29,913 nt of DNA from a virus. Below, in pieces: positions 2,090-22,268 of this stretch (its first letter is position 1; each line of letters begins with the position of its first letter). Below the pieces are notes generated by a model. It had not been told where the DNA came from, did no database searches, and worked only from the letters and a program-made list of their open reading frames with translations. The position numbers and the translations under genes are program-made. The stretch lies in IMG/VR virus record IMGVR_UViG_3300017782_004813, positions 1 through 29,913 of that record. One strand, 5' to 3'.

Positions 2090-2093
2090 AGAT

Positions 2094-2792: not shown

Positions 2793-2863
2793 ATATTGAA
2801 ACGAAAAAACAAACTACTATATTTAAATAAGATTAAGAACGAGAATAAAAAAAAGAAAAAGAA

Positions 2864-3595
2864 ATGAAATCTAAAGTCATAATTCTACAAGTTGATAATC
2901 GACCAGCATACAACATACTATTGTCCACACAACAGGTCAACAAACACATGTGCAACCATTTTGCTGATTATGACGTGAAATACATGTTTCAAAATTTAAA
3001 TGACATATCAGACGCAAAGTTGATCAACAAACAACCAGGTGACAGAAGAGGATGGAACACGAAGTATAAGAAAATGTTCGCTGTACAGGATCTTCTCCGG
3101 AACAATGAGTTCATATTCATGGTATTTTTAGACTCTGATGCATGGATACAAAACCCAAATCATGTCAATCAACTGCTCAACAGACTTGAAAGTCAACAGA
3201 CAAAAATAGGTGCATTTTCACGTGACCCGTACATTGAATCAAACACTCATATCAATAGCGGTTCTTTCATACTGAAGTGTAATGAAGCTTCTATCAATAT
3301 GTATGATCAGATCATATTCAATTACAAGACCAGGCCCAAATCTCCTAACAAGCATAAAAATCACATAAAATTCCATGATCAGTACTTTGTTTCTGAGTAT
3401 GTTGAGCAAAATAAAAGTCAATTTGATATTTTTGAACCTGATGTGCTGAACACTCCAACTGGTCAGGTTCTTCGGCACTATTGGTTCAACAAGAGAGATT
3501 ACAAAGACTTTAACAGACAAACAACACAGCTCATGAAAACAAGCGAATTTAACAACACAAAATATAATTTTGATGTGCGGTTAGATGATAAATAA
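2864..3595 (+). CDS. GT34-like (GMA12/MNN10 type) glycosyltransferase
   Basis: 243 aa. Seen: an N-terminal strand with a Q-V-D-N-R-P motif. VFLDSDAW (88-94) contains the DxD metal- and donor-binding motif. NSGSFILK (131-138) and FHDQYF (170-175) match the N-T/S-G-S and D-Q core of GT34 and related nucleotide-diphospho-sugar transferases. The family usually transfers galactose, mannose or xylose in an alpha linkage. The gene is preceded by a 71-nt A-rich leader containing TTGAAA and TATATT spaced 16 bp, a possible promoter. The purine run AAAGAAAAAGAA before the ATG is not a good Shine-Dalgarno sequence. The substrate is unknown. Confidence 0.6.
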   Translation: MKSKVIILQVDNRPAYNILLSTQQVNKHMCNHFADYDVKYMFQNLNDISDAKLINKQPGDRRGWNTKYKKMFAVQDLLRNNEFIFMVFLDSDAWIQNPNHVNQLLNRLESQQTKIGAFSRDPYIESNTHINSGSFILKCNEASINMYDQIIFNYKTRPKSPNKHKNHIKFHDQYFVSEYVEQNKSQFDIFEPDVLNTPTGQVLRHYWFNKRDYKDFNRQTTQLMKTSEFNNTKYNFDVRLDDK

Positions 3596-3613
3596 TGGTA
3601 TCATTTGATATCC

Positions 3614-4321
3614 ATGAAAGTAGGTTTCGCGTTTTTAGTCACTAAAGAATTTCACAACAGAGAACATTTAAAAAATTTTTTTGATAGTTTAGGTCTTGAT
3701 ATAAAAATATGTGTTCATTCAAAAAAGAACGCTAGATTCAATTTACCGTTTCCGGTGGACTACATAAAGAGTATCAAAACCGGTTGGGGTCAACCGAGTT
3801 TAGTCAAAGCGAGTATTCTTTTGTTTGAACATCTATTTGACAAAGGATGTGATATTGTGTATCTAATGTCCGGGGACATGATACCGTTGAAACGATGCAA
3901 AAAATTCATTACACGCAATCGAAAAACAACATTCCACACACCACCTCCAATACACAATGACAAACCTCACAATCCAACCATAAAACGTAATCATAATCAA
4001 TACAAAGGTACATCACTACAATTCAAAGATAAAATTACATTTAATAAATTCACAAAACAAAACATGTTCTTCTGTATATCCAGTCACGATTTTAACAACA
4101 TTGAACCAGATTTTAGTCTCTTTCAAAGAACATTCGCGATTGATGAATGGTTCTGGATCAACACGATGATATATCATGGTATGAAGTTTCAGACAAATAT
4201 AAATTACATCTACTGCAACCCTAAATTGCATGAAACACAGGCCTTGTTTTTTGATGAGATACCTGAGAGTGTTAACAATGAATTCTTGTTCATGAGAAAA
4301 ATACATCTGGACGTGAATTGA
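3614..4321 (+). CDS. GT14-like glycosyltransferase, paralogue of 2094-2792
   Basis: 235 aa from the ATG at 3614. I prefer this to the in-frame TTG at 3605 because the protein then begins MKVGFAFLV, aligning with its paralogue. Seen: CVHSKK (33-38), YLMSGDMIPL (83-92, identical to the paralogue) and DEWFW (177-181). An intervening K-Q-N-M-F-F-C block is also shared. A central insert of about ten residues rich in H, N and P (about 109-128) is absent from the paralogue. The role is presumably the same type of branching transfer with a different acceptor. It is cytoplasmic, with no membrane segment. Confidence 0.6.
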   Translation: MKVGFAFLVTKEFHNREHLKNFFDSLGLDIKICVHSKKNARFNLPFPVDYIKSIKTGWGQPSLVKASILLFEHLFDKGCDIVYLMSGDMIPLKRCKKFITRNRKTTFHTPPPIHNDKPHNPTIKRNHNQYKGTSLQFKDKITFNKFTKQNMFFCISSHDFNNIEPDFSLFQRTFAIDEWFWINTMIYHGMKFQTNINYIYCNPKLHETQALFFDEIPESVNNEFLFMRKIHLDVN

Positions 4322-4329
4322 TCATCTAG

Positions 4330-4337
4330 AATAAATA
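4330..4337 (+). promoter_or_regulatory. T4-type late promoter-like motif
   Basis: AATAAATA lies between two genes and ends 6 nt before the ATG at 4344. It has the same sequence and nearly the same spacing as the box at 1480, implying a near-leaderless late transcript. Confidence 0.45.
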
Positions 4338-4343
4338 CTATTG

Positions 4344-4928
4344 ATGGTTAACGATGAATATAAATTTATATTTGTACATGTGAGAAAAACCGGGGGAACG
4401 AGTCTTGAGCAAGTTTTTGATTCTTCCGCCGGTCACGGGAAAGATGAAGTACCGTACAAGCATTACACGGCTGTAGAACTACGAGAAATGTTTCCACACA
4501 AATGGGACAAGTATTACACGTTTAGTTTTGTCAGAAACCCATGGAGCTGGTTGGTGTCACGTTACAAATGGAGCAACGGTGTGCATAATTACATTAAATC
4601 AGCGACATTTGAACAATTTGTAGTAGAATTGTGTCAAGGTAACACAAGCAACATCCCGCAATGGATAGTGAGAGCGTGTGAACCACAAATCAACATGATT
4701 GGAGACAACAACAGAGTAATTGTTGATCATGTGTACAGATTTGAACAACTGCAATCCGGGTTCGATCACATATGTGATACGATCAATCACCCAAAAAATA
4801 AACTGCCACACAGCACCAAAACAAAACACAAACACTACACTGAATACTATGATGATACAACACGTGAGCTTGTCACACGTAAATATGCTAGAGATATAGA
4901 AACATTTGGATATATATTCGGAGACTAG
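4344..4928 (+). CDS. Sulfotransferase family protein (Sulfotransfer_2-like)
   Basis: 194 aa from the ATG at 4344; a TTG one codon earlier is less likely. Seen: HVRKTGGTSLE (12-22) as the PAPS 5'-phosphosulfate loop, SFVRNPWSWLVSRY (61-74) as the 3'-phosphate motif, and a VYRFEQL block near residue 131. These are the standard landmarks of bacterial and viral carbohydrate sulfotransferases. It closely parallels 1493-2089 in length and motif order, including the C-terminal YTEYYDD / YTKYYDD block, so the two are paralogues. A DUF616 glycosyltransferase-like gene begins 2 bp after its stop. It is predicted to act on a glycan assembled by the neighbouring enzymes. Confidence 0.85.
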   Translation: MVNDEYKFIFVHVRKTGGTSLEQVFDSSAGHGKDEVPYKHYTAVELREMFPHKWDKYYTFSFVRNPWSWLVSRYKWSNGVHNYIKSATFEQFVVELCQGNTSNIPQWIVRACEPQINMIGDNNRVIVDHVYRFEQLQSGFDHICDTINHPKNKLPHSTKTKHKHYTEYYDDTTRELVTRKYARDIETFGYIFGD

Positions 4929-4929
4929 C

Positions 4930-5754
4930 ATGAAAGTAGCGTACATAACAGCAATAACAGGTGCATATGAAGCAACCTGTAAAAAGTTTCCAAAACAAAC
5001 CGTGGATAGCGATTTTATATGCTTCACGGATTGTGAGAACATAGAGAGTAATGGTTGGGAGATAGACACACGTGAGTACCACTACGAATTTCCATCCGAT
5101 GTTGATAACAACAAATATAAAAACTCTCTATGTAACAACAAACACACATTCAATATAGCCAAATATTACAAGCAACAATTTCACAACATACCTCGACTCA
5201 AATCGTATGATGTTGTTGTGTGGGTTGACGGTACTGTGTCTATAAAAAACAACAACACCAGTAAAGATCTGATCGCGCATATGGACGAAGGTAACTTGTT
5301 GATAACATGTGAGCATCGAAAACATAGACGTTCACTGAAAAAAGAAGCTGAGATGTCAGTCTCCAAAAGACTACGCAAACCGAAGTATGCATCAACACAC
5401 TGGAATGGTCAAGATCAACCGTACCAAGACACCATCGAGCAATATGAACAGTATGTTAAAAATGGATACACGGAGCAATACTGGGTGAATGTTAAACCAA
5501 GAAATAGATACTATGGGGTTTTTGTAACATGCTTCACTGGATGGGACATGAGGAATGAAAAAACTAGGCAATTTTTAGATATGTGGTACAAGCAAACATT
5601 ACAACACACAACACAAGATCAAGTAGGATTTGCTTATGTTGCCCAAAAAATGAACATACACCCATACACGGCCATGTTCAATGGTCAATCCGGTTACTAC
5701 TGGAGCGGTGCTCCGCATAATAATTATTTTGAAAAAATCGCACACGGTCAATAA
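4930..5754 (+). CDS. DUF616/TOD1-MUCI70-like glycosyltransferase
   Basis: 274 aa from the ATG at 4930. An upstream TTG at 4906 would overlap the preceding gene and add residues unlike the family. Seen: an N-terminal VAYITAITGAYE strand, FICFTD (29-34), an N-K block, and VVVWVDGTVSI (95-105), which holds the D-G equivalent of the DxD. A DQ pair lies near residue 240. This order matches the DUF616 (TOD1/MUCI70) domain, related to glycosyltransferases and known mostly from plants and bacteria. The family's biochemistry is poorly known, so the sugar is not predicted. It lies between two sulfotransferases, consistent with glycan assembly. Confidence 0.65.
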   Translation: MKVAYITAITGAYEATCKKFPKQTVDSDFICFTDCENIESNGWEIDTREYHYEFPSDVDNNKYKNSLCNNKHTFNIAKYYKQQFHNIPRLKSYDVVVWVDGTVSIKNNNTSKDLIAHMDEGNLLITCEHRKHRRSLKKEAEMSVSKRLRKPKYASTHWNGQDQPYQDTIEQYEQYVKNGYTEQYWVNVKPRNRYYGVFVTCFTGWDMRNEKTRQFLDMWYKQTLQHTTQDQVGFAYVAQKMNIHPYTAMFNGQSGYYWSGAPHNNYFEKIAHGQ

Positions 5755-5795
5755 ATTAAATTGATTTCCGGTGTCAACAATATTAAAATAATTGT

Positions 5796-6959
5796 ATGAT
5801 AGTTTCGCACAAACATAAGTTTATATTTGTCAAAACACATAAAACCGCAACACAATCATTTTTCAATGTGATCAAACCACATCTCGGTCCAGATGATGTT
5901 GCAGTGGGTGATGAACGTGTAGCTGATGACACATACAATCTAGATAGACCCACAGAAGAGTGGAGATTTGTTGACACGAGTCTCAATCTAGACAAGCAAT
6001 TCCCCACCGGAAAGAGTGCGAGAGACACAAAAGAGTACATGGGTAATCACATACCATGGTTCACAATAAAGGATATTGTTGGAGACGAGATCTGGAATAC
6101 GTACGCGAAATTTTCTATCGAAAGAGATCCATTGGATCGTATTGTATCTCTATTCTATTTTTTAGAGAAAAGATTTGTACACCCACTTGGTGGGGTGCGT
6201 GTCAATCCAGACAGCAAATGGTTAGAGGGTATCAATTTCGCAATAAATGAGAAGCATGATGATATAGTTGCAGTTGGAGCTGGTAATCCTAAAAAACCTA
6301 GAGACCCGAAATTTTTCGTAATGAAAGACAAAGAACAATCCCCTGTTGATCTGGACCCGGAGGGTGTTAGAGAATATTTCGAAGATTGGGTGTTGTGTCA
6401 ATTGTTGTGTGATGAATTGTCATTAACAGACATCAAAACATACGGTGTTGAGGCAGTAGAGCCAGAAAGAAAGATTTACAAGCAAGCGTGTGACAAACAC
6501 AAGTTGGTCGCAATGTTTATGGAGGATGAATCTCGCGTGAAACTCAGTGTCAACAATCGGCAGTGGATGACATGTCCATCATTGAAGCAAGACATACTAG
6601 TATCTGATAGAGATTATTACAACCCGAACACAAAAAATGCATACAAGCGATTTTTATCACTTGAGGGTCAATGTAGATTTTTAAACTATGGTTACTATCA
6701 TGATGGTAAAGAGATGCAAATTGACCATCTTGTAAAATTCTCAAAAGACCTGCCAAGAGAGTTTAATAAATTCTTCGATAAACATGATATAAACATCAAA
6801 CTATCACCAGATGATTTCAAAAAACGTTCACTGAATATCAATCATCGCAAAACATTAAACAAGGTGAAAACAGTTGATTGGTGGTTTAGTGGGAAAAGAG
6901 GTGAAAAAATTAAAAATTTAATACACAAAAGGTTCGATAACATAGTCAAGTTCAAATAA
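5796..6959 (+). CDS. Large sulfotransferase-like protein
   Basis: 387 aa, about twice the length of the other sulfotransferases here. Seen: KTHKTATQSF (13-22) as a degenerate PAPS 5' loop, with T-A-T-Q in place of G-G-T-S. FSIERDPLDRIVSLFYF (106-122) is the 3'-phosphate-binding strand-helix with R-D-P for the usual R-N-P. After the core comes an insert rich in charged residues (about 130-230) and a basic C-terminal tail (about 330-387). The core motifs make a sulfotransferase fold likely. The altered loop means the donor should be regarded as probable rather than certain. It is followed 8 bp later by a glycosyltransferase-like gene. Confidence 0.65.
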   Translation: MIVSHKHKFIFVKTHKTATQSFFNVIKPHLGPDDVAVGDERVADDTYNLDRPTEEWRFVDTSLNLDKQFPTGKSARDTKEYMGNHIPWFTIKDIVGDEIWNTYAKFSIERDPLDRIVSLFYFLEKRFVHPLGGVRVNPDSKWLEGINFAINEKHDDIVAVGAGNPKKPRDPKFFVMKDKEQSPVDLDPEGVREYFEDWVLCQLLCDELSLTDIKTYGVEAVEPERKIYKQACDKHKLVAMFMEDESRVKLSVNNRQWMTCPSLKQDILVSDRDYYNPNTKNAYKRFLSLEGQCRFLNYGYYHDGKEMQIDHLVKFSKDLPREFNKFFDKHDINIKLSPDDFKKRSLNINHRKTLNKVKTVDWWFSGKRGEKIKNLIHKRFDNIVKFK

Positions 6960-6967
6960 GTATAGTC

Positions 6968-8791
6968 ATGTCGTCAGAATACGTCTCGCATCTATGTACC
7001 TTCATGGGAAGGGAAGCCAATTTAAAGATACTTTTACCATATATCGAAACCTGTTTGCGTGTTGAAGCCATTGATAATTACTGGTTCATTGACATGACTC
7101 GTAAGAGATCAGATCACGAGTATATAAAGCAAGTAAGTCAGGAGATGAATGAGAAATTCCCTGGTCGTGTTCATTTGTACAACAGTGATGAGAGGTCAGC
7201 AATTATCGATGACCCAGAAGTCATCAAGACAGTTTCAAATGATTGGAGTGTGTTTTACAAGTTTTTGAGGAAGTTTAATGATAATGATATCATTGCTAAA
7301 TGTGATGACGACACATACTACATTGATGTTGAAACACTCAAGGGTGCTTTTGATTACAGATGGAACAACAAACGTCCATACATCATGCACGCTAATGCTA
7401 TAAACAATGGTGTAGCTGCATTTCATCAGAGCAAGAAAAAGATATGGGATGGTGATGAAGAGAAACTTTATCCGATTGGTGGTCTGACTGGTCCCCTTTT
7501 CTCACACCCGGAGATTGCATGTAAACATCATGACGCGTTCGCGACCGATATGTTACAAGACAGAAGCAATATCAACAAGTACAAGCTTGGTAAAAACATA
7601 CATTTTACTAACAGAGTGTCAATCAACTTCTTTTTCATGTTGGGTAGTGATCGCAACAGTTTATCAAAAATCACACGACAAGATGAATATGACACGAGCT
7701 GCAAGTACCCTCAAGTCGAAGATAGGCCCAACATGTTGATTGGTGATTTCACGATGGCGCATCACACGTATGGTGTTCAAGAGCCGGTGATGGAAAGACT
7801 CGAGACTGATATCAAATATAGAGAGCTTTCTGAAAAATTAAACAGTGAAGATGTTGTGTATGAACACAAGCCAATAACAGACAAATACGCACCCACGTCT
7901 ACAATAAAATCTGGTGACGAGTATGTGGCGAGAGCATGGGTGGAAAAAAATTCGTACTGCTTGAGAGATCCCAAGACACAGTTATACATATCAACACAAA
8001 ATGTAGTGGCGAACAATCCCAATGGTGATTTTCTCAAAACAAGGTGGGATTCCACATCTGATCTGAAGCAGGCGTGTGTGTTCAATATAGATGTTAATGA
8101 TGAAAATTGCATGTGGATCAACAACAGCATACAAATAATCAGACACCCGGACAAGGATAAAGATCAAGAAGCAGCAGGGATGGGGTACACATTCTTTCAA
8201 GGACTGTACACCAGAAGCAAAATGACCACCACAAGAGACAATGACAAGATTGTGATCAGTCCATCTGGTAAGAGTGATTACACACTCGCTCCGGCGATTT
8301 TAAACGACAACGTACCGGTGGATGACAAACGTAGATCATTGTTGTTCTGGACAAGGAAGGCGAAATTTGAATGGGATCTCGTGCCAGTAAATCAATACAA
8401 CAATCGTGTTGTATCAATGAACATCATCCGCCCGGATAAATGGATGCAATACACCAATGATGAAACGAGAGGTGAATCAAAGATTGATGATTTACCTAAC
8501 AACAACGCGCCACGTGATTACATCTGGATGATCAAAGATTATATCTGGGAATTCAATAAAGTTGATGACAACAAATATCAGATAAAACTAGTGGCGGATG
8601 ACAAGGAAGATTTGTTTCTTGGGAAGCTCGGTAAAACTAACAATGTCGGTACAATCAAAAAACCTGAAAAATGGATCATCGATGGTGAAAAGCTCAGACA
8701 TGGTCCGTCTGGTAAAGAGCTGCATGTTAACGACGTTGGTGAGATTAAATTAGAAGAAACCGGTTCGAGTTTAGATATCAACATACAGTGA
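6968..8791 (+). CDS. GT-A glycosyltransferase with beta-rich C-terminal half
   Basis: 607 aa, the largest protein in the cassette. Seen: the N-terminal half (about 1-300) has alternating strand-helix character and a CDDDTYYID motif (112-120). This D-D-D is the metal/nucleotide-sugar motif of GT-A enzymes such as the GT31 and hydroxylysine-transferase groups. The C-terminal half (about 320-607) is rich in aromatic and polar residues. It has recurring short W-containing segments that resemble a beta-trefoil or other carbohydrate-binding fold, but I cannot assign a family. No signal or membrane segment is visible. Its TGA overlaps the GTG start of the next gene. Role inferred: processive or acceptor-anchored sugar transfer. 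Confidence 0.5.
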   Translation: MSSEYVSHLCTFMGREANLKILLPYIETCLRVEAIDNYWFIDMTRKRSDHEYIKQVSQEMNEKFPGRVHLYNSDERSAIIDDPEVIKTVSNDWSVFYKFLRKFNDNDIIAKCDDDTYYIDVETLKGAFDYRWNNKRPYIMHANAINNGVAAFHQSKKKIWDGDEEKLYPIGGLTGPLFSHPEIACKHHDAFATDMLQDRSNINKYKLGKNIHFTNRVSINFFFMLGSDRNSLSKITRQDEYDTSCKYPQVEDRPNMLIGDFTMAHHTYGVQEPVMERLETDIKYRELSEKLNSEDVVYEHKPITDKYAPTSTIKSGDEYVARAWVEKNSYCLRDPKTQLYISTQNVVANNPNGDFLKTRWDSTSDLKQACVFNIDVNDENCMWINNSIQIIRHPDKDKDQEAAGMGYTFFQGLYTRSKMTTTRDNDKIVISPSGKSDYTLAPAILNDNVPVDDKRRSLLFWTRKAKFEWDLVPVNQYNNRVVSMNIIRPDKWMQYTNDETRGESKIDDLPNNNAPRDYIWMIKDYIWEFNKVDDNKYQIKLVADDKEDLFLGKLGKTNNVGTIKKPEKWIIDGEKLRHGPSGKELHVNDVGEIKLEETGSSLDINIQ

Positions 8792-9714
8792 AAATACTAA
8801 TCACAGGCGCCACAGGACTTGTAGGTGCAAGCATGGTCAAACAAGCGCGTGATTTGTTTAAACATGAAGTCATATCAGTATCAAGTAAAGATTGTGATTT
8901 ATTAGATGCGAGAGCAACTGAGAATTACATAGTGGGTCACAAACCTGATGTTGTGATACATCTAGCAGCCAACGTTGGTGGGTTGTTCAAAAACATGAAC
9001 AACAAAGTTGAGATGTTTGAACATAACATTCGCATGAATTCAAATGTTATCAGTGCATGTCACAAAGCTGGAGTTGAGAGATTCATAGGAACGTTGTCTA
9101 CATGTATATTTCCAGATAAAACTACATACCCTATTGATGAGAGCATGCTGCAACTGGGACCACCACATACATCCAATGATGCGTACGCTTATGCCAAGAG
9201 AATGTTGATGGTGCAATGTGATGCATATAACGAACAGCACGGTACAAACTACTCATGCATCATACCCACAAATGTGTATGGTGATAATGACAATTACAAT
9301 CTACAGGACGCTCATGTGATCCCGGCACTCATACACAAATGCTATCTAGCCAAGAAAGAATCTAAAAGTTTCGTCGTCGCGGGTTCTGGTAAACCTTTGA
9401 GGCAATTCATACATGCAGATGATCTGGCCAATATAACACTACAGCTGATTGATAAAATCGACAGAGAGAGTGTCATCATATCACCAGAGCAAGAAATCAG
9501 CATAGGTGATGTAGCTAAACATATCGCTGATGCATTTGATTACAGCAAGATGATGAGATTTAATCTCGAGTTACCTGATGGTCAATACAAAAAGACTGCT
9601 GACAACACAAAGATGTTGAAACTAATATCCGATTATGAATTTATCGATTTGAAACAAGGTATATATAGAACTGTCGACCACTTCATAAATAACTTCGATC
9701 AAATTAGAAAATAG
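8788..9714 (+). CDS. fcl: GDP-L-fucose synthase
   Basis: 308 aa, close to the usual ~310-320. Start is GTG, overlapping the upstream TGA by 3 bp. Seen: Rossmann GATGLVGA (7-14) for [12 protein letters not shown] (58-65), STCIFP (104-109) with the family Ser/Cys, and YAYAK (133-137) giving the catalytic Tyr-x3-Lys. This is a short-chain dehydrogenase/reductase epimerase-reductase. It converts GDP-4-keto-6-deoxy-D-mannose to GDP-L-fucose by 3,5-epimerisation and NADPH reduction. The next gene encodes the preceding pathway enzyme (Gmd), so the pair makes GDP-L-fucose from GDP-mannose in the infected cell. The dimerisation and C-terminal substrate-binding region appears complete. Confidence 0.92.
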
Positions 9715-9718
9715 ACAA

Positions 9719-10735
9719 ATGAAAAAACTTGCATTAATAACAGGCATAACAGGGCAGGATGGATCATATTTAACGGAATTATTACTGGATGAAGGGTATG
9801 AAGTGCATGGTATAGTGCGCAGAAGCTCTTCTATCAACACCGGGAGAATCGACCATCTATACGACAAGATAACGCTACACTACGGCGATTTAACGGACAG
9901 TACAAACATAACACGTTTAGTTGCATTGCTAAAACCAGATGAAATTTACAATTTAGGGGCCATGAGCCATGTCAAAGTGAGCTTTGAGGTACCTGAATAC
10001 GTTGCAGATGTTGATGCTATCGGTACATTGCGCATTTTAGAAGCTGTGAGATTGAATGGTCTTATAGATAAAACCAAAGTGTATCAAGCATCAACAAGTG
10101 AATTGTACGGGCTTGTGCAAGAAGTACCACAGCGTGAAACAACACCATTTTATCCTAGATCACCGTACGGTTGCGCAAAGCTTTACGGGTATTGGATTAC
10201 TAAAAATTACAGAGAATCGTATGACATGTTTGCCTGTACCGGTGTGTTGTTCAATCATGAATCCCCAAGAAGGGGAGAAACATTTGTGACAAGGAAAATA
10301 ACCAGGGCGTTGAATAGTATATTGAAGGGTGATCAAGACAGATTAACGCTGGGTAATCTAGATGCAAAGAGAGATTGGGGGCATGCCCGGGATTATGTAC
10401 GTGGTATGTGGTTGATGTTGCAGCAAGACAAGCCTGATGATTATGTGTTATCCACAAATGAGTTTCACAGTGTCCGAGAATTTGTTGAAATGAGCTTCAA
10501 GTTGAAAGGATTTGATATCAAATGGAAAGGTGTAGGGGTAAGTGAGATTGGTTATGATGAATCAACTGGTCGCGAATTGGTGTTTGTGTCAGAGAATTAT
10601 TTCCGACCCGCGGAAGTCGAACAGTTACTTGGTGATTCTACAAAAGCTAGACAAGAGCTAAAATGGGTACCAGAGGTCAGTTTTGAGCAGTTAGTTCAAG
10701 AGATGGTCGAACATGATTGTGGGGCTGACGAGTGA
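9719..10735 (+). CDS. gmd: GDP-mannose 4,6-dehydratase
   Basis: 338 aa, typical of bacterial and phage Gmd. Seen: TGITGQDG (8-15), the NADP(H)-binding loop in its Gmd-specific form. [16 protein letters not shown] (33-48) carries the family R-R-S-S-x-x-N signature. STSELYG (125-131) holds the catalytic Thr/Glu. Tyr150-x3-Lys154 and a NHESPRRGE-type segment near residue 180 complete the active site. It converts GDP-D-mannose to GDP-4-keto-6-deoxy-D-mannose, the substrate of the adjacent fcl product. It starts 4 bp after fcl and its TGA overlaps the GTG of the next gene. GDP-mannose must come from the host or from genes outside the window. Confidence 0.95.
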
Positions 10736-11562
10736 AAATTGGAGTTGTAGGTAATGGATTTGTTGGCAGAGCCATGACTCTGTTACGACCAGGTGTCGAT
10801 GTTCTGGTTTGGGACATCGATCCAAATAAATGTGAACCGTTCAATCTGACATTCGAACGGTTTGTTAATGATGTAGAATTGATCTTTGTCGCGGTACCGA
10901 CACCAATGAACCCAGATGGTACATGCCATCTCAACATTGTGAGATCTGTTGTCAATAAAATAAAGGAGCTTAATTATGAGAAACACATCGTATTGAGATC
11001 AACTATACCACCTGGTACATGTGACAGCATGGATGTTAGTTTCATGCCGGAATTCTTGACCGAGAAAAATTGGGCACATGATTTCAAAAACTGCGAACAA
11101 TGGATAATTGGTACTGACAACACATTAATTTACAACAAAATAAAAACAATATTCTCACAAGCCAAATCGAGTGAATCTGTTGTTAATGACAACATAATAC
11201 AAACAACACCTGCAGAGGCAGAGATGATCAAGTATGTAAAAAATTGTTACCTCGCAACAAAAGTTAGCTTCTTTAACGAGATATACAACACATGTCAAGC
11301 AGCAAATATCAATTTCGAAAATGTACGAAGTGTGGCCTGTGAGGATTCTAGAATAGGTATAGGGCACTCAACGGTACCGGGACATGATGGTAGGACGGGG
11401 TACGGTGGAACGTGTTTTCCGAAGGACATGAATGCTTTGACTAAATTCATGGAGCAACACAACGTCGTGTCACATGTACTATCGGGTGCTGTGATCAGAA
11501 ATGAAACGATCGATCGTGTTGAAAAAGATTGGTTGAGTGACACTGGCCGAGCAGCAATCTAA
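10732..11562 (+). CDS. Short UDP-glucose/nucleotide-sugar 6-dehydrogenase
   Basis: 276 aa, starting at GTG overlapping the gmd stop. Seen: GNGFVG (7-12) NAD loop, VAVPTPMN (53-60), RSTIPPGT (89-96) and MPEFL (105-109). [15 protein letters not shown] (161-175) supplies the catalytic Glu and Lys/Asn. GGTCFPKD (225-232) contains catalytic Cys228. The family oxidises the C6 hydroxyl of UDP-glucose (or a related sugar) twice to give a uronate. The protein ends shortly after the central dimerisation helix. The C-terminal Rossmann-like UDP-binding domain of the usual ~390-450 aa enzymes is absent, with no frameshift visible. It may be a compact phage version; activity and substrate are therefore uncertain. 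Confidence 0.8.
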
Positions 11563-11577
11563 GCATATATAATACAT

Positions 11578-12582
11578 ATGAAAGTAAATATATACGGGTG
11601 TGGAATGAGCGGCACGGTCGCTGCAATTTTATTGAAAGAGCAGGGTCATGATGTCGAGATTTTCGAGGTCAGAGATCATATTGCCGGTAATTGCTATGAT
11701 CATAAAAATGATGATGGGTGTACAGTACATGAATATGGATCACATATCTTTCATACAAATGATGAATCTGTTTGGAATTTTCTGAACAAATACACAAAAT
11801 TTAATGACTATGAACACCGGGTGCGTGCCAACACAAGTGTAGGTTTAATCAGCATACCTTTCAGCAAGAAGACGGAAGAGCAACTCGGTCGAGATTTATC
11901 ACCAACTGAGATACAAGAGCTGTTGTTCCGTGAGTATTCGGAACGTCACTGGGGCATACCTTGGGAGCAATTACCCAAGAGCATCAGCGGTCGTGTGCCT
12001 AACAAACGTGACAATCATGATGACAGATATTTCACAGACAAATACCAAGGTATCCCGGAACACGGTTATACCAAAATGTTTGAAAACATGCTAGATGGTA
12101 TCAAAGTTAATCTAGGTGTAGAACATGGTTTGCACAAGCGTCTCAAAGCAGATCTTGTTGTTTGGACAGGAAAGGTATCTGAGTATTTTGATTTGAAATT
12201 AGGTCATCTCCCTTATCGTTCATTACGTTTTGAACATGAGCGTGTAAAGAAGGATCCACTGTATACATGGGAGCAAGGCGCCGTTATAAACGAATGTAAT
12301 ACCAAGCCTTTCAATCGTACCATGGATAGTAGTGTGTATTTGAATGAACAAGTTGAACACACCATACACACACGTGATTTTCCAGAAGAGTATGAGCCCG
12401 GTAAGAATGCGCCTATATATCCGAAAACGTTCGGTGAAGGACCAGAAGTGTACAAAAAATATCAGCAAATGGCCAACAGTGACCCCAACACAATATTTTT
12501 AGGTAGACTAGCAACATATAGATATCTAGACATGTGGATGGCAGTGAAACAGGTTATGGGCAAGCTGAAAAAAATTAGCTAA
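11578..12582 (+). CDS. glf: UDP-galactopyranose mutase
   Basis: 334 aa, slightly shorter than the common ~365-390. Seen: FAD-binding GCGMSGTVAA (7-16) with Glu30 at the end of the second strand. AGNCYD (36-41) and EYGSHIFHT (52-60) are signature blocks of UGM. A central substrate lid follows, and near the C-terminus FLGRLATYRYLDM gives the conserved G-R-x-x-T-Y-R-Y-x-D-M. The flavoenzyme interconverts UDP-galactopyranose and UDP-galactofuranose. This points to galactofuranose in the glycan made by the cassette. It is the last gene of the carbohydrate run; a TATAAT box lies 4 nt before the ATG. Confidence 0.93.
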   Translation: MKVNIYGCGMSGTVAAILLKEQGHDVEIFEVRDHIAGNCYDHKNDDGCTVHEYGSHIFHTNDESVWNFLNKYTKFNDYEHRVRANTSVGLISIPFSKKTEEQLGRDLSPTEIQELLFREYSERHWGIPWEQLPKSISGRVPNKRDNHDDRYFTDKYQGIPEHGYTKMFENMLDGIKVNLGVEHGLHKRLKADLVVWTGKVSEYFDLKLGHLPYRSLRFEHERVKKDPLYTWEQGAVINECNTKPFNRTMDSSVYLNEQVEHTIHTRDFPEEYEPGKNAPIYPKTFGEGPEVYKKYQQMANSDPNTIFLGRLATYRYLDMWMAVKQVMGKLKKIS

Positions 12583-16287: not shown

Positions 16288-17721
16288 ATGTCACAGGTAA
16301 AACCATCACAATCATACATCGATCAAGAGCGCGCCAGCGTGCTTCTTGAGAAATGGGCTCCGGTTTTGGACTACAGTTCCGAGAACGTTAAAGCCATCAC
16401 TGATGACCATTCTCGTTTGAACACCGCTATCCTCTTGGAAAACCAAGAGACGTGGTGCTTGAAAGAGAATTCATACGGTGGAGGAGCTCTCGGAAGTGCT
16501 GCTAGCTTTGGTGCACCTACCGCTCCAGGAGGACCTGGAGATGCGTACGCAACAGGCGACAGCCGTCTTCCCAAAATCTTGATCCCAATGATTCGTCGTA
16601 CATTCCCTGAACTTATCACTAATGAGATCGTAGGCGTTCAACCCATGAGCGGTCCAGTAGGACTCGCTTTTGCTATGCGTTACAAGTACGAAACCGATAG
16701 CCTTGGTTCCACTGGAATCGACGGACACACTAGCGGTTCAACCACTACTGGTAACGACGGACAACCTCGTCAAAATGACGGTCTTGAAGCTGGATATCAA
16801 ACACTTGACACCCGTTTCACCGGAGCTAGCTCCGCTGATTTAAACGGTGACTCAGGTCTCGGTATCGACTTCATTGACAATGACGCAGGTGTTGCAAAAG
16901 CACTCGCTGATTACGAACTTACCGGCAACATTCCACAGATGGTCGTTTCATTTGAAAAGACCGCTGTTGAAGCTGGAACTCGTAGATTAGCTGCTCGTTG
17001 GAGTGTGGAACTTGAGCAAGACCTCAAGAACATGAACGGTATTGATATCGACACTGAATTGACAAACGCTATGTCGTATGAAATTCAGGCTGAAATCGAC
17101 CGTGAAATGCTCATGAGAATGGTTCAAGTTGCTGCCAACGCAGGCGCAGGCAAAGGTGTAAGTACCTGGAGCCCTGCAAGTGCTGACGGACGTTGGATGG
17201 CCGAGCGTAATCGTGACCTTTATGCCAAGATCATTGTTGAAGCGAATCGTATCGCTATCCGCAACCGTCGTGGTGCTGCTAACTTCTTAGTTGCTACACC
17301 TCGCGTATGCGCGATTCTTGAAATGCTCCCTGAGTTTCAGTGGATGCAAGTTCAAGGCAACGTGAATACCCAACCAGTGGGCATCGCTCGCGTGGGTAAT
17401 CTCGGCGGAAGGTTCAACGTTTACCGCGACACACGTACAGAAGCTCAATACGAAAATGGTGATCGTACCAATCGTATGGAGTATATCCTCTTAGGCTATA
17501 AAGGTCCTGAGTTTTACGACACAGGTATCATTTACTGCCCATACATCCCAGTGATGGTACAGAGGACTGTTGGTCCTAATGATTTTGCTCCACGCGTTGG
17601 TCTTTTGACCCGTTATGGTGTTGTTGACAACATCTTTGGTGCAGATCTTTACTACCATGTTATCGTTGTGAAGAATCTCGGTGAGTCGTTCGCACCCGGC
17701 ACTCAGTCGGTGTACTTCTAA
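16288..17721 (+). CDS. Major capsid protein, T4 gp23-like
   Basis: 477 aa (T4 gp23 is 521 before cleavage). Seen: an N-terminal delta region with L/I-x-E sites (LLE at 49-51, LKE at 58-60) suited to gp21 cleavage, followed by a Gly/Ala-rich stretch. IRRTFPELITNEIVGVQPM (about 102-120) and WSVELEQDLKNMNGIDIDTE (about 238-257) are classic gp23 blocks. A central D-R-E-M-L-M-R-M helix follows. The C-terminal YYHVIVVKNLGESF block is the characteristic end of the HK97-type fold. It forms the hexamers of the shell. Codon choice differs from its neighbours (more CGT, AAC, GGA, TCC; higher GC), as expected for a very highly expressed gene. It ends 64 bp before an intrinsic terminator. Confidence 0.95.
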   Translation: MSQVKPSQSYIDQERASVLLEKWAPVLDYSSENVKAITDDHSRLNTAILLENQETWCLKENSYGGGALGSAASFGAPTAPGGPGDAYATGDSRLPKILIPMIRRTFPELITNEIVGVQPMSGPVGLAFAMRYKYETDSLGSTGIDGHTSGSTTTGNDGQPRQNDGLEAGYQTLDTRFTGASSADLNGDSGLGIDFIDNDAGVAKALADYELTGNIPQMVVSFEKTAVEAGTRRLAARWSVELEQDLKNMNGIDIDTELTNAMSYEIQAEIDREMLMRMVQVAANAGAGKGVSTWSPASADGRWMAERNRDLYAKIIVEANRIAIRNRRGAANFLVATPRVCAILEMLPEFQWMQVQGNVNTQPVGIARVGNLGGRFNVYRDTRTEAQYENGDRTNRMEYILLGYKGPEFYDTGIIYCPYIPVMVQRTVGPNDFAPRVGLLTRYGVVDNIFGADLYYHVIVVKNLGESFAPGTQSVYF

Positions 17722-17823: not shown

Positions 17824-18201
17824 CTATATTGCAGATAGATTGTCGTGAATTCTGAACGAATCCTCATCACGATGATATGTACTCGCCTCAATCAGCGTCA
17901 CAGGACCATCATGTGCAATCAACATGTGCGGTTGACCTTGCTCTATTTCATATGTATCACCCACATTTAAATACACTGTACTACCTTCTCCAGTAGATGT
18001 GTCAATTAGCTCAAGACGTAGTCTACCTATTATGATGTAGAACACCTCATGCTTGACTAGATGATAATGCATCGATGTGTGTTTATCTTTGTCAATAAAC
18101 AATTCTTTACCACAATAATTCTCACGCTCGTTGTTCGCGAACCACTTTTCATGTCCCCATCTCTTCTCAACAAGCTTGGATGTTTTCTTGCTCTTGATCA
18201 T
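17824..18201 (-). CDS. Cupin protein, mannose-6-phosphate isomerase type II-like
   Basis: 125 aa. Seen: WGHEKWFANNE (15-25), a signature of the phosphomannose isomerase type II (ManC C-terminal) cupins. Metal ligands HYH (45-47) and Glu52 form cupin motif 1, and PHML (91-94) with His92 forms motif 2. A single small beta barrel fits the length. The family isomerises fructose-6-P and mannose-6-P. If so, it could feed the GDP-mannose/fucose branch encoded at 8788-10735, though stand-alone cupins of this type are often uncharacterised. The ATG overlaps the queF TGA, so it is the last gene of the kinase-queF-cupin operon. Confidence 0.7.
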   Translation of the reverse strand: MIKSKKTSKLVEKRWGHEKWFANNERENYCGKELFIDKDKHTSMHYHLVKHEVFYIIIGRLRLELIDTSTGEGSTVYLNVGDTYEIEQGQPHMLIAHDGPVTLIEASTYHRDEDSFRIHDNLSAI

Positions 18202-19154
18202 TGTTTAGCAGTCTTCACATGCATTGCATTTGGATTGATCAGATCACTACACTCTTGTTGAATCACATAATGATTTGATGCTCTGACCGGGTTGATATCG
18301 ATTCCACCACGTCTAGCATACAAACATGTCACGCACAATTGTGTTGGTGATAATACGTCATGAATACGTTTGTAGATGGTCTCGCATATCTCTTCATGGA
18401 AATGACATTCATCGCGAAACGACACGATGTACTTCAACAAGCTCTCCGGAGTAATTTGATTATGACCTTGATACATGATATAAACATCACCCCAATCCGG
18501 TTGACTTGTTACACGACAATTGCTTTTGAGCAACGCACTATGCCATCTACACGTTCTACTCTTGTCCCACATGCTGTAATCACAACCACCACACCCGGTG
18601 TCTTCTATTTCTAGTAACTCTGGTGATTCGCTGTATATGTCCAGCTTCATCTCAGTAAGATATTCCGGTTCGAATGTAGATTCTAATGTAGTATATTTGC
18701 CCCGATCTAACACACTGTCTCCCGTGGCTATTAGATCTGCAGGATATGTCTTGACAACTACGTCAGTCTCTAACAATTCACTCAAATCCTTTGATGATGT
18801 CTGATCAACATGATCAAGCACTTGTTGTGGTGTGTCGCCACACTTGTACATGTTGAACGAGTTGAAGTACAATTTGATACTCTTGCTCTCAACAATGTAT
18901 TTGCTGTTACATGGATAAATGACTTTGGCTACACCTGCAACAGGTAGACCGTTATTGGTCAACGCACTCACTTCGTATGCATTCCATGTATCATATCCAA
19001 CAAATGGTAAAGACTCATCTTTGATGTCAAGATGTCTACGATTGTTTATCCTAGGTTCATTCACTAGTAGTTTTGGATCATATTGATCCTTGTACTCTGA
19101 CGTTTGACCTAAATGTTTACTAATTCTACTGTTGTCTAATGTTTTATTGCTCAT
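18198..19154 (-). CDS. queF: NADPH-dependent 7-cyano-7-deazaguanine reductase (QueF)
   Basis: 318 aa, the long two-domain QueF type (E. coli ~282). Seen: VESKSIKLYFNSFN (88-101), the QueF family motif with the substrate-binding Glu. SNCRVTSQPDWG (211-222) contains the Cys213 that forms the thioimide with preQ0 and the catalytic Asp220. CHFHEEICE (250-258) and RRGGIDINP (281-289) form the remaining substrate and NADPH site. It reduces preQ0 to preQ1 with two NADPH. In bacteria preQ1 goes to tRNA queuosine, but in several phages it feeds 7-deazaguanine DNA modification. The TGT-like gene at 21402-22220 makes the latter likely here. No preQ0 synthesis genes (folE, queD, queE, queC) lie in the window. 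It overlaps the kinase gene by 11 bp. Confidence 0.93.
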   Translation of the reverse strand: MSNKTLDNSRISKHLGQTSEYKDQYDPKLLVNEPRINNRRHLDIKDESLPFVGYDTWNAYEVSALTNNGLPVAGVAKVIYPCNSKYIVESKSIKLYFNSFNMYKCGDTPQQVLDHVDQTSSKDLSELLETDVVVKTYPADLIATGDSVLDRGKYTTLESTFEPEYLTEMKLDIYSESPELLEIEDTGCGGCDYSMWDKSRTCRWHSALLKSNCRVTSQPDWGDVYIMYQGHNQITPESLLKYIVSFRDECHFHEEICETIYKRIHDVLSPTQLCVTCLYARRGGIDINPVRASNHYVIQQECSDLINPNAMHVKTAKQ

Positions 19155-19710
19155 TGTTTATTAAAGTTTTTATTTGATACATTCGTTGTTCAGGCGTGCC
19201 GGACAGTTTAACTACCTTGTGTCTCCATGTGTTTTTACCAGGTACAAACATCGTGCTGTTGAACAATTTATCGTATATGCCAATTATTTCATCTCTGAAT
19301 TGTTTGTTGATGCTACGACCACCATCATCCTCCATTGGAATGTGATCCGGACAGGTGTACAATATATGATTCAAACGCTCTCCTAACATTGAGAGCAAAC
19401 AGCTAGCATGATTCAACACCCATCCACTGACCCTGCCTTGTTCGAATAACCATCTTGTATACACATATCCATCAAGTATGCATCTGTCTAAAATCCAATT
19501 CTCGTCATCAGGTATAACATGATTGACAAGATGTTCTTTCAGAATGAAGAGCTGTGTCAAATCATCACCTTGTTCGTTTATCACACGACCCATTCTCCCC
19601 ACTTTACGAGTGACTTCATCAACAAAATTGTAATTGCTGAACGTATTTTTACACATGTTCAGCATTGTTGTTTTACCTGTGCATTGTGCACCTGTGAATC
19701 CAATCAACAT
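19144..19710 (-). CDS. NadR-like P-loop ATPase/kinase (AAA_28 type)
   Basis: 188 aa. Seen: GAQCTGKTT (7-15), a Walker A loop directly after the first strand. A D-E-V-T-R-K segment near residue 33 and ILDRCILDGYVYTRWLFEQG near residues 70-90 (long Walker-B/lid-type helix) match NadR-like AAA_28 kinases. Such proteins phosphorylate small nucleosides such as nicotinamide riboside, or related compounds. No second domain is present. It is first in the operon with queF and the cupin, directly behind a perfect promoter, so it is probably expressed early. Whether it acts on a deazaguanine nucleoside, NAD precursors (QueF needs NADPH) or something else is open. Confidence 0.65.
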   Translation of the reverse strand: MLIGFTGAQCTGKTTMLNMCKNTFSNYNFVDEVTRKVGRMGRVINEQGDDLTQLFILKEHLVNHVIPDDENWILDRCILDGYVYTRWLFEQGRVSGWVLNHASCLLSMLGERLNHILYTCPDHIPMEDDGGRSINKQFRDEIIGIYDKLFNSTMFVPGKNTWRHKVVKLSGTPEQRMYQIKTLINNEQ

Positions 19711-19717
19711 AATCTAC

Positions 19718-19746
19718 ATTATATCCTATTCAAGACAGATTGTCAA
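19718..19746 (-). promoter_or_regulatory. Perfect sigma70-type promoter of the kinase-queF-cupin operon
   Basis: On the - strand, TTGACA (19746-19741), a 17-bp spacer and TATAAT (19723-19718) match the consensus exactly. The ATG of the kinase gene follows 7 nt after the -10, so the expected start site falls at or next to the A of the ATG and the mRNA would be leaderless. The -35 begins one base after the stop codon of the upstream gene. Confidence 0.85.
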
Positions 19747-20115
19747 CTAATCTTTTGGAAATTTGATACGATCATCCATTTGACGCTCGAGAGGGAATGC
19801 ATCCACATCATGTGCCTTCCTCTCCGCGTGCATAGCACACAACATGTTCCACACAACTGCAGCAGCATGATCTTCTGTATCATCACCTCGCCACCATGCT
19901 TCCAAGTGTCTGTGCATGCAATCGAAGTACGCGCTCAATGGCATCCCTTTCATCCAGTTGTTTTCTCCATATTTTTCTACACCATCAAGGTATCTCTTCA
20001 TCACACGCTTCAACTCTTGTTGAGGCATGAGGCTCATTCGTAGTTTACCTTCAGCGGTGTCGCGCTGTGCTCCGGTGGAGAATTTTCGATTATTATCGTT
20101 TTCTTTCTGACTCAT
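19747..20115 (-). CDS. DUF5664-type (dATP/dGTP diphosphohydrolase N-terminal-like) protein
   Basis: 122 aa from the ATG at 20115; a TTG at 20124 is possible. Seen: STGAQRD (13-19), EKYGENNW (47-54), RHLEAWW (69-75) and DDTEDHAAAVVWN (78-90). These four blocks define the small helical family named after phage dATP/dGTP diphosphohydrolases. The D-x-x-E-D-H block resembles the metal-binding acidic cluster of all-alpha NTP pyrophosphatases. Possible role: hydrolysing a deoxynucleotide to adjust pools, which would fit DNA modification or host-DNA salvage. Many proteins with this domain have no tested activity. It is the last gene of the operon starting at dpdA. Confidence 0.65.
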   Translation of the reverse strand: MSQKENDNNRKFSTGAQRDTAEGKLRMSLMPQQELKRVMKRYLDGVEKYGENNWMKGMPLSAYFDCMHRHLEAWWRGDDTEDHAAAVVWNMLCAMHAERKAHDVDAFPLERQMDDRIKFPKD

Positions 20116-20302
20116 TTTGTTCAAATGTGTATTTCCGATATTTTGTTAAATATGTAGATAAACTGCAAAATATGGCCATCGTGACAGAAAAGATAGCGAA
20201 GTATGAGCCATCAAAAGCCAAACTTATGGCGCATAACATGTTAATCACACAACCAACATATAATAATCGTCCCCCTAGATTGAGATCCATCCATGATTTC
20301 AT
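20093..20302 (-). CDS. Small membrane protein, two transmembrane segments
   Basis: 69 aa. Seen: a short polar N-terminus, then hydrophobic helices at about 13-30 and 34-52, then a basic/acidic cytoplasmic tail rich in K, R and E. The ATG overlaps the TGA of the upstream gene (ATGA) and its 3' end overlaps the next gene by 23 bp, supporting translational coupling. No family recognised. A membrane hairpin of this size could be a holin/antiholin-like or host-membrane-modifying protein. Its position inside the deazaguanine operon is unexplained. Confidence 0.6.
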   Translation of the reverse strand: MKSWMDLNLGGRLLYVGCVINMLCAISLAFDGSYFAIFSVTMAIFCSLSTYLTKYRKYTFEQNESERKR

Positions 20303-20835
20303 TTAGCTACAATCTTCGGACCAAATTTATGCCAAAGATCCACTTCACATAATGTTAATCTTTTGTTTGTTGAGACAAACCGCTTGAGACCACCAGTTAG
20401 ATTACGTTTTCTCTCAAGACCACGTTTGTGTATTTCCACACAATCAATCATGTCAGTACCATTGTAGCCATTTTCATATGAGGTTGATGACAATCCATCC
20501 GGGTGATGAAAACCTATGATCACACCATATTTTTTTACTCCAGTGCTCTTTTGCATCACCACATCACCAATAGTGAAATCATCATATGATTTGAATTTAA
20601 AATTCTCATCTACGAGCTTACATGCTGACAAATTTATCTTTCTGATTCGAAAACCACCTTGACCACGCATCAACGGTCGGAGTCTTTTATCATACATTAT
20701 AACCTCGACTTTGTCACCATCTGACAATATGCTGTAAACTTCACCTACATATTGTTTACGATCGATCTTGTATTTAACTACGCTCCCCACGGTAATTTCA
20801 CCGTCTCTATCTAATTTGAGTAATCTTATATTCAT
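20299..20835 (-). CDS. Unknown protein with beta-barrel (SH3-like) character
   Basis: 178 aa. I do not recognise the family. Seen: two segments that each read 'I-x-V/D-G-x-V-V-x-(K)' followed by alternating beta strands: ITVGSVVKYKI (about 14-24) and FTIGDVVMQK (about 87-96). They suggest a tandem pair of small SH3/KOW-like barrels, the kind of fold that binds nucleic acid or peptides. Basic residues dominate the C-terminal third. It lies 12 bp after the formyltransferase gene and overlaps the next gene by 4 bp, so it is co-expressed with the predicted DNA-modification enzymes and may assist them. Confidence 0.6.
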   Translation of the reverse strand: MNIRLLKLDRDGEITVGSVVKYKIDRKQYVGEVYSILSDGDKVEVIMYDKRLRPLMRGQGGFRIRKINLSACKLVDENFKFKSYDDFTIGDVVMQKSTGVKKYGVIIGFHHPDGLSSTSYENGYNGTDMIDCVEIHKRGLERKRNLTGGLKRFVSTNKRLTLCEVDLWHKFGPKIVAK

Positions 20836-20847
20836 GTTTATATCGTT

Positions 20848-21405
20848 TTATGTTAGAAATTGTTCCCATAAATCTAACGCCATCGATGATAAACTGCAAC
20901 TTAATTGTTTCTCGCTATGAAAATCGTTGAATGTTGACACTTGAGCAAGAACTTTACCTTCATCAACACCAGGAGACACCTCGTGTATCACACAACCAAT
21001 CTCGCGATATGTCTTTTGCTGTTCATTGAATGCACGTGTCTGTGGATCAGCACCCTTTAGTTCCGGATACTTGGTGATCAACCCGGGATGTAAATTGTAC
21101 AGTTTGAAACTATCACATATGGTGGCCGGTACAATTCTCATCCATCCATGCAATGTCACAACACTGTCCGGATCTTTTATCAGACGATCGTAGTCTTGCT
21201 CATCTGGTGTGCTCTTGGTATACACAATATCAATGCTGTTATTATCCACCATGCGCATCAGATCCTCGCTTATTGTTTTATCTCCTGGAGGTTTGTTGAC
21301 CACCACTCGATCCGGTACACGATTCACTCTGCAGCTCAAGTTGTAAATCTCTGCTCCCGTGTGACTGAAAAACGTCACCCATCTTTTGTCCTTGTCTAGA
21401 ATCAT
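20848..21405 (-). CDS. Formyltransferase, predicted dPreQ1 formyltransferase (DpdN-like)
   Basis: 185 aa, a compact formyltransferase domain. Seen: TLHGWMRIVP (84-93), the counterpart of the PurN 'LAGFMRIL' block. NLHPGLITKYP (104-114) carries the catalytic Asn104 and His106, and SPGVDEGKVLAQ (144-155) carries Asp148. These reproduce the Asn-His-Asp triad of 10-formyl-THF-dependent formyltransferases such as PurN and Fmt. No Fmt C-terminal tRNA domain is present. A phage formyltransferase named DpdN has been proposed to formylate preQ1 in DNA to give fdPreQ1. Direct coupling here to a TGT-like gene (4-bp overlap) and a nearby queF makes that role the best explanation. Alternative: a phage GAR transformylase, though no other purine gene is nearby. 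Confidence 0.75.
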   Translation of the reverse strand: MILDKDKRWVTFFSHTGAEIYNLSCRVNRVPDRVVVNKPPGDKTISEDLMRMVDNNSIDIVYTKSTPDEQDYDRLIKDPDSVVTLHGWMRIVPATICDSFKLYNLHPGLITKYPELKGADPQTRAFNEQQKTYREIGCVIHEVSPGVDEGKVLAQVSTFNDFHSEKQLSCSLSSMALDLWEQFLT

Positions 21406-22220
21406 CTTCTCAGTATTTTTTTAAACATTGTTGTGTTGTGTTGTAATATTTCAAATTGTTTGTCTGTGAACTCATGGTCTATTAGATCAGCCAGCATGGT
21501 TTTAGGTTTGTATTGCAAGCCTTGATCATCAATATATCTACTGTCATGAATAGCGGCAACTATCGGGTTACTGGTGTCAACACTCTTGATGTTGTATATG
21601 TTGTTGTCAACATAGTATCTAAACTCTTTGGCTAGACTACACCCTAACAAATGATGTGGCTTGTCCCAGCACCAGTAACCTTCATCGATCAGATGTCTGA
21701 TGAAGCGTTTCCGGCCAGAGCACCATTTTTGTAGTGTCGGATCCGCTACATCGTTGTCAACCAACCCGGTTGCAAGATAGTAGCTATAATCAAAACTGAT
21801 CGCGATAATATCAGCATTGTCTTTGATATAATTGTAACAGCGCACCAGCTCATTCCAGCTCTTTCCCTGAACCACACCAATTCTCAAAGCGTTCGAATCA
21901 ACATCATGTTCTCTTGTCCATGTCTTCCATTTGTCTATTGTACCAGCTGCATCTTCCAACACATCAGGTACAATATAGTAATCCGGATCCAATTTGTCAA
22001 TCCATTGCGCATATTTGTCACCATCAAAGCTTTTGCCTAGTTCAAAGATGCTGTTGTCCAACAACACAGGACATCTGTTTGTATCAGTTAAATTTTTGTA
22101 AAAATTATAATATTTGGTGTTCGTCTCGAACAGATGCACCAGAGCATATGCATAATCATTGTATTCTAAACTCTCATTCAAAATGGAAACCGGACTTTCG
22201 TGTGACACTTCAATTAACAT
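21402..22220 (-). CDS. dpdA: TGT-like guanine transglycosylase (DpdA-like)
   Basis: 272 aa from the ATG at 22220; longer in-frame starts run into the promoter and the divergent gene. Seen: VLLDNSIFELG (52-62), VPDVLED (84-90), RIGVVQGKSW (113-122), ISFDYS (141-146), HHLLGCS (189-195) and IKSVDTSNP (211-219). This set follows the TIM-barrel order of tRNA-guanine transglycosylase relatives: substrate-pocket Asp, 'VQG' strand, central FD, and terminal S-x-D-T-S-x-P strand. No CxCxxC zinc cluster of tRNA-type TGT is visible. Phage members (DpdA) swap guanine in DNA for a 7-deazaguanine base after replication. With queF and the formyltransferase, the inserted base is predicted to be preQ1 or its formyl derivative. 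A tRNA substrate cannot be excluded. Confidence 0.75.
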   Translation of the reverse strand: MLIEVSHESPVSILNESLEYNDYAYALVHLFETNTKYYNFYKNLTDTNRCPVLLDNSIFELGKSFDGDKYAQWIDKLDPDYYIVPDVLEDAAGTIDKWKTWTREHDVDSNALRIGVVQGKSWNELVRCYNYIKDNADIIAISFDYSYYLATGLVDNDVADPTLQKWCSGRKRFIRHLIDEGYWCWDKPHHLLGCSLAKEFRYYVDNNIYNIKSVDTSNPIVAAIHDSRYIDDQGLQYKPKTMLADLIDHEFTDKQFEILQHNTTMFKKILRR

Positions 22221-22226: not shown

Positions 22227-22255
22227 ATTATAAATACAAATGTTGCAAATGTCAA
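22227..22255 (-). promoter_or_regulatory. Perfect sigma70-type promoter of the dpdA operon
   Basis: On the - strand, TTGACA (22255-22250), a 17-bp spacer and TATAAT (22232-22227) are an exact consensus match. The dpdA ATG lies 6 nt after the -10, so the transcript should be leaderless. The same geometry is seen at 19718-19746. An inverted repeat AATGTC-AAC-GACATT (22248-22262) covers the -35 and could be a repressor site. Confidence 0.85.
22229..22236 (+). promoter_or_regulatory. Exact T4 late promoter consensus
   Basis: TATAAATA on the + strand is an exact match to the T4 late box and shares four bases with the -10 of the divergent dpdA promoter. It lies about 45 nt upstream of the Clp gene and points towards it. 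Use of this box by late RNA polymerase would physically conflict with the - strand promoter. Confidence 0.55.
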
Positions 22256-22268
22256 CGACATTGTTTAA

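Follow-up and report, generated by a model that had tools for sequence, protein, structure and literature searches.

A likely fdPreQ1 DNA-modification cassette with a conserved kinase partner in a T4-like virus fragment

The closest described systems are phage pathways that make 7-deazaguanines for DNA. In 2023, Cui and co-workers reportedly described a pathway to 7-(formylamino)methyl-7-deazaguanine (fdPreQ1) in which a formyltransferase, DpdN, is proposed to formylate dPreQ1, and they are said to have named a DpdA3 subfamily and tied it to complete replacement of guanine. The DpdA1-type systems of phages 9g and CAjan replace guanine in part. In Campylobacter phages CP220 and CPt10, dADG takes the place of 100% of dG, according to a passage of PMC8306585 that cites Crippen et al. 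2019.

Here we analyse a linear IMG/VR virus fragment of 29.9 kb from a marine T4-like phage (IMGVR_UViG_3300017782_004813, positions 1 to 29,913; the whole stretch is called the window). Its minus strand carries a cassette of genes for DpdA, a formyltransferase (FT), p178, p69, a DUF5664 protein, a P-loop kinase, QueF and a cupin, located between a T4-like gp23 capsid gene (16288-17721) and a ClpB-like gene. We consider this operon likely to encode a DpdA/QueF/DpdN-type pathway to fdPreQ1, making a hypermodified guanine for the phage DNA. The pathway itself is of a kind already known; the point that appears to be new is the kinase that lies beside DpdA.

DpdA, formyltransferase and QueF

The open reading frames of an earlier note on this DNA, made from the letters alone, were found as it had given them, i.e. 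a DpdA-like protein (21402-22220), FT (20848-21405) and QueF (18198-19154), all on the minus strand. The first two overlap by 4 bp (21402-21405), as had been noted; kinase and QueF overlap by 11 bp, QueF and cupin by 4 bp.

DpdA (272 amino acids, phrog_19058, DpdA3-like) is a predicted guanine transglycosylase with the fold of tRNA-guanine transglycosylase (TGT). Its AlphaFold2 model is of high confidence (pLDDT 94.6), and a Foldseek search of the PDB placed TGT structures at all of ranks 1-41 (E=8e-8), followed at rank 42 by the DpdA structure 7ui4 (5e-5). Sequence profile searches gave no match to the TGT family models at E 0.1, and no zinc-type cysteine cluster (CXC/CX2C) was found in the protein, which bears out the description of a TGT-like protein lacking the tRNA-type zinc site. 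The homologues keep the motifs LDNS, VVQG, HLLG and SxDTSNP with little or no variation. Two aspartates, D55 (in LDNS) and D215 (in SxDTSNP), are invariant across 57 homologues, and from the motifs we take them to be the counterparts of the catalytic aspartates of TGT. The order of the motifs matches that of 9g-type DpdA (LDS / HGFG / S(C)DSS). The nearest database relatives are the proteins of Flavobacterium phage immuto (42% identity), annotated as a DNA guanine transglycosylase, and of Campylobacter phages CP220, CPt10 and CP20 (42-43%; E about 1e-45 for CP220/CPt10). The charge of the protein was considered as a sign of DNA binding and set aside as uninformative, the 9g DpdA being equally acidic.

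These properties bear on the possibility that the cassette serves to raise queuosine levels in host tRNA and does not modify DNA at all. QueF does make a queuosine precursor; however, DpdA has neither a tRNA-TGT family match nor the zinc site, a formylated preQ1 is not a queuosine intermediate, and the relatives in CP220/CPt10 belong to phages whose dG is, in the cited passage, fully replaced. We regard this explanation as very improbable.

FT matches PF00551 (E=4e-12) and is predicted to formylate preQ1 or dPreQ1. The intact Asn-His-Asp triad noticed earlier (N104, H106, D148) is invariant in 49 homologues. The folate-side motif HGWxRI is kept, and the phosphate loop GSN of PurN is replaced by TGxE (SHTGAE in the window). 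A scan with the single sequence gave no close relatives; these were recovered once an alignment served as the query. The 49 cassette FTs form one clade (support 100/100), apart from PurN/PurU/Fmt/ArnA, in a phylogeny whose outgroups were PurN, Fmt, ArnA and PurU from E. coli together with several further PurN and phage homologues; some outgroup rows are long-branched. By sequence FT is set apart from PurN and other formyltransferases, and we take it to be putatively DpdN-like. In one relative a tryptophan-halogenase-like gene is inserted between DpdA and FT (L046:10810-12390).

Alternatively, FT may have nothing to do with the modified base and be a sugar N-formyltransferase or PurN, in which case the phage DNA would carry plain preQ1. 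The best PDB matches of FT are indeed PurN, and the left 12 kb of the window is apparently rich in sugar-nucleotide and glycosyltransferase genes. On the other hand, FT scores 45 bits on the PurN model TIGR00639, about one third of the cut-off of 150, the GSN loop has changed, and FT forms a fixed part of the DpdA operon in 52 out of 63 clusters of related loci (see below). This alternative is improbable. The profile comparisons with tRNA TGT and PurN, named in the earlier note as a possible refutation, gave no TGT family match and an FT under the PurN cut-off.

QueF is full length, as had been claimed: it matches PF14819 (3e-33) and PF14489 (8e-23), both over the cut-off, and has the NADPH-type motif ESKSIKLY and the cysteine of SNCRVTSQPDWG. 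ESKSIKLY and SNCRVT(S/N)QPDWG are conserved in six QueFs, and the protein is 45-47% identical to phage QueFs annotated as reductases. It is likely to be a nitrile reductase that converts preQ0 to preQ1.

In the pathway that we favour, QueF would reduce preQ0, supplied by genes elsewhere in the genome or by the host, to preQ1. The DpdA3-type transglycosylase would exchange guanine for the 7-deazaguanine, probably at most or all G. FT with 10-formyl-tetrahydrofolate would cap the aminomethyl group to give fdPreQ1, whether on the free base, the nucleotide or DNA. Gene content, folds, active-site residues and gene order are the observations behind this pathway. The earlier proposal that DpdA, a DpdN-like FT and QueF together lead to fdPreQ1 is in agreement with family, structure, tree and synteny, its chemistry being predicted from them. 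The same note had assumed partial replacement of guanine, which is probably wrong: since the closest characterised DpdA relatives, those of CP220/CPt10, come from phages in which the cited passage has all dG replaced, complete replacement is the better guess, and replacement is probably high or complete.

Several points weigh against this pathway. The hhalign comparison of DpdA with 9g-type DpdA (DpdA1) is weak (E=0.06, low probability, motifs aligned), and a profile of the 57 DpdA homologues retrieved from the PDB DpdA 7ui4 alone, at E=0.7; given such weak profile matches, membership in DpdA is judged from structure, motifs and pairwise similarity to the proteins of the Campylobacter and Flavobacterium phages. 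QueF scores 249 bits on TIGR03138, i.e. it fails the equivalog cut-off of 293 and its reductase function is not certified by that model; the immuto QueF is likewise below it (263 bits). The sequence comparison of FT covered PurN/PurU/Fmt/ArnA, and its likeness to the biochemically assigned DpdN is a prediction. folE, queC, queD and queE are not in the 30-kb fragment, nor does a near relative of 147 kb (L013) show a gene like any of these four. Finally, the individual reactions are all predictions, and so are the end product, the share of guanine that is replaced and the protection of the DNA.

As to the source of preQ0, the earlier note's proposal that the host or genes beyond the window supply it is plausible. 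Most of the larger relative contigs carry such genes: of 21 contigs, 15 have queC and 16 have folE; of 12, 8 have queD and 9 encode a QueE-like protein that scores below the TIGR03365 cut-off. L013 does not fit this pattern; here a host supply of preQ0 or an incomplete contig is possible.

Conservation and transcription of the cassette

Related loci were collected by alignment-based scans, which gave 150 distinct loci, 148 of them with DpdA, falling into 63 DpdA clusters at 80% identity. Note that the loci were sampled by similarity to proteins of the window, so that the frequencies given here are valid for this clade only. The order DpdA-FT-kinase-QueF is kept in about 50 of the 63 clusters, most of them from IMG/VR and including immuto. 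FT is present in 52 clusters, QueF in 56 and the kinase in 60. Among clusters with an untruncated locus, FT and kinase without QueF were scored in just 2, one of which (L038) has QueF elsewhere in the same contig; QueF without FT was also seen. Since the gene order is conserved across many independent contigs, chance can be ruled out. The cassette is also common beside gp23 in metagenomic T4-like contigs, so that to call its presence in a T4-type phage notable, as was done before, was an overstatement.

Two sigma-70 promoters of the same type, TTGACA-N17-TATAAT, each a 12/12 match to the consensus, precede the two groups of genes, as had been proposed. One serves DpdA-FT (22227..22255, minus strand) and is conserved in nine related loci; the other serves kinase-QueF-cupin (19718..19746, minus strand), the kinase ATG being at 19710. 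Because both promoters end about 7 nt before the ATG, the DpdA and kinase transcripts are probably leaderless. A GTTG..CAAC palindrome (22242-22256) overlaps the -35 box of the DpdA promoter, is kept in nine loci and is a possible operator. A T4 late promoter, TATAAATA, was rejected for the cassette, because the sole exact copy nearby (22229) sits on the plus strand and the sigma-70 consensus is a far better fit. QueF does lie in the next operon, as stated in the earlier note, yet it is the second gene there: the kinase (19144-19710) stands between promoter and QueF. That note had left out the kinase and the DUF5664 nucleotide-hydrolase-like gene (19747-20124).

The kinase beside DpdA

The kinase (19144..19710, minus strand) is a P-loop (deoxy)nucleoside or nucleotide kinase (AAA_28, PF13521 E=2e-10, phrog_2107). 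Its AlphaFold2 model (pLDDT 92) resembles deoxynucleoside kinases, dTMP kinases and NadR in Foldseek. The kinase adjoins DpdA (within 6 kb) in 126 out of 128 loci having at least 3.5 kb downstream of DpdA. The two exceptions are Bacillus phages, in which a different P-loop kinase, with no phmmer match to the first, overlaps DpdA. Some lineages have DpdA-kinase-QueF without FT, and the Campylobacter phages have DpdA-kinase without QueF or FT. A NadR-like role of the kinase as NADPH supplier for QueF was rejected, because the kinase also occurs where there is no QueF. Within the isolate collection, this DpdA occurs in 15 Campylobacter and 4 Flavobacterium records, every one of which also matches the kinase; beyond these, the kinase matches only two more Campylobacter contigs (IBB_35) and, weakly, Streptomyces phages. 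Searched with the same profiles, eight 9g-type DpdA loci contained none of the window-type DpdA, FT, kinase, QueF and hydrolase-like genes, and phrog_2107 kinases were absent from the seven of them searched as whole virus records. The kinase constantly accompanies the DpdA of this clade, regardless of which base is made in the end (dADG in CP220, dPreQ1 or fdPreQ1 by prediction elsewhere); its role therefore likely lies in base insertion or in supplying the substrate for it, and not in formylation.

A nucleotide-hydrolase-like gene is found in the cassette of 44 of the 63 clusters. The family is lineage-specific: DUF5664 in 19 clusters, DUF1599-like in 15 (below the Pfam cut-off), PRA-PH in 9 and HD in 1. 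The window has the first of these (19747..20124, minus strand; PF18909 E=1.2e-20), of the dATP/dGTP diphosphohydrolase N-terminal type (dGTP_diPhyd_N). GMP reductase occurs in 6 clusters, between FT and kinase (L079:11378-12334 and five others), and an XGPRT-like phosphoribosyltransferase near DpdA in 8 of the 63. We infer that both the kinase and the hydrolase-like protein are part of the modified-base pathway, and the pairing of DpdA with the kinase suggests either nucleotide-level synthesis or guanine recycling. Several relatives encode another phrog_2107 kinase close to QueE (L187:7974-8711, L189:2808-3479 and others), and one cassette contains a LOG-family (nucleoside 5'-monophosphate phosphoribohydrolase-like) gene (L117:5355-6092).

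If synthesis took place at the nucleotide level, DpdA would swap the base on dGMP or deoxyguanosine derived from dGTP hydrolysis for preQ1 or another 7-deazaguanine, the kinase would rephosphorylate the product, and the polymerase would incorporate it, leading to complete replacement; such a route is compatible with fdPreQ1 as end product. The constancy of the pair argues for it, i.e. 126 out of 128 loci, another P-loop kinase in both exceptions, and a kinase even in lineages without QueF or FT, as do the hydrolase-like genes, GMP reductase, the modelled likeness to deoxynucleoside and dTMP kinases and the lack of such a kinase in the seven records with 9g-type DpdA. However, TGT-family enzymes act on polymers, and Cui and co-workers reportedly concluded that insertion is post-replicative, which counts against the route. 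Moreover, the role of the kinase is predicted from adjacency and fold, the DUF1599-like matches are below the Pfam cut-off, and GMP reductase would deplete the GTP that FolE requires. On balance we hold this route to be rather unlikely.

Alternatively, DpdA would act on DNA, and the abundant freed guanine would be salvaged by a phosphoribosyltransferase and the kinase to GTP, which FolE would use for more preQ0. The phosphoribosyltransferase genes near DpdA speak for such recycling, and so does the order QueD-QueE-phosphoribosyltransferase-like-kinase in L189, where the third gene was identified from its translation only. The kinase, however, is also present where no phosphoribosyltransferase is seen nearby, and the fold search on the model favours deoxynucleoside and dTMP kinases over guanylate kinase. 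Recycling, too, is a tentative reading that we would sooner doubt than accept. A plain exchange at the DNA level with an accessory kinase is possible as well.

A literature search, which did not cover the key DpdN/DpdA3 work, found no paper on a link between DpdA and a kinase, so that its novelty is unconfirmed. The near-universal pair bears on the question of how some phages replace all guanine and others part of it, and it could be probed through one gene in cultured phages (CP220, immuto). If the nucleotide-level route were true, the kinase would be an indispensable partner, overlooked until now, and would account for complete replacement; this DpdA clade would work on the nucleotide pool and not on DNA, and the polymerase would copy a genome without guanine.

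Neighbouring genes and comparison with known systems

The other genes of the cassette, all on the minus strand, are less widespread. p178 (20299..20835) is a conserved cassette protein that sits between FT and kinase in 9 of the 63 clusters; profile searches of the window proteins gave it no family match above cut-off. p69 (20093..20302; 17 of 63) is small and, judging from the hydrophobic segments in its sequence, probably a membrane protein. The cupin (17824..18201; PF07883) belongs to a family found near DpdA in 6 of 63 clusters, and same-family cupins adjoin DpdA in other lineages (L027, L122, L127, L130, L136); it may be part of the pathway. The left part of the window (1-12582), with translations read by eye, apparently holds many sulfotransferase-like, glycosyltransferase-like and nucleotide-sugar genes, whose products may serve to decorate virions or to change the surface of the host. 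The gp23 of the window is about 35% identical to cyanophage gp23. Rfam gave zero matches within the window, and phage records contained no close DNA match to it.

Through the fdPreQ1 cassette, a DNA-protection chemistry that is already known would extend to a large group of T4-like phages, most of them uncultured. The most similar described locus is that of Flavobacterium phage vB_FspM_immuto (MW353176), where DpdA, FT, kinase and QueF follow in the same order with 42%, 39%, 34% and 45% identity. It differs in having folE/queD/queE/queC, a phosphoribosyltransferase and a PRA-PH pyrophosphohydrolase nearby, and, unlike the window, it is without DUF5664, p69 and p178. CP220/CPt10 share a 42-43% identical DpdA, with a kinase of the type seen in the window immediately after it; their locus is without QueF or FT, and their base is amido, not aminomethyl or formylaminomethyl. 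The DpdA1-type enzymes of 9g/CAjan are TGT-related DNA transglycosylases with the same order of motifs, yet they belong to phrog_887 and have no adjacent kinase, QueF or FT of the window families. The DpdN/fdPreQ1 pathway includes a proposed dPreQ1 formyltransferase, as predicted for the FT of the window; the 2023 work of Cui and co-workers is not known to mention kinase and nucleotide-hydrolase partners. The definition of the Z-genome (2-aminoadenine) pathway is not known to include a kinase of this type either. That pathway concerns adenine, not guanine, and uses PurZ, not a transglycosylase; by analogy only, it shares a nucleotide-level logic, with a dedicated dNTP hydrolase beside the base-making enzyme.

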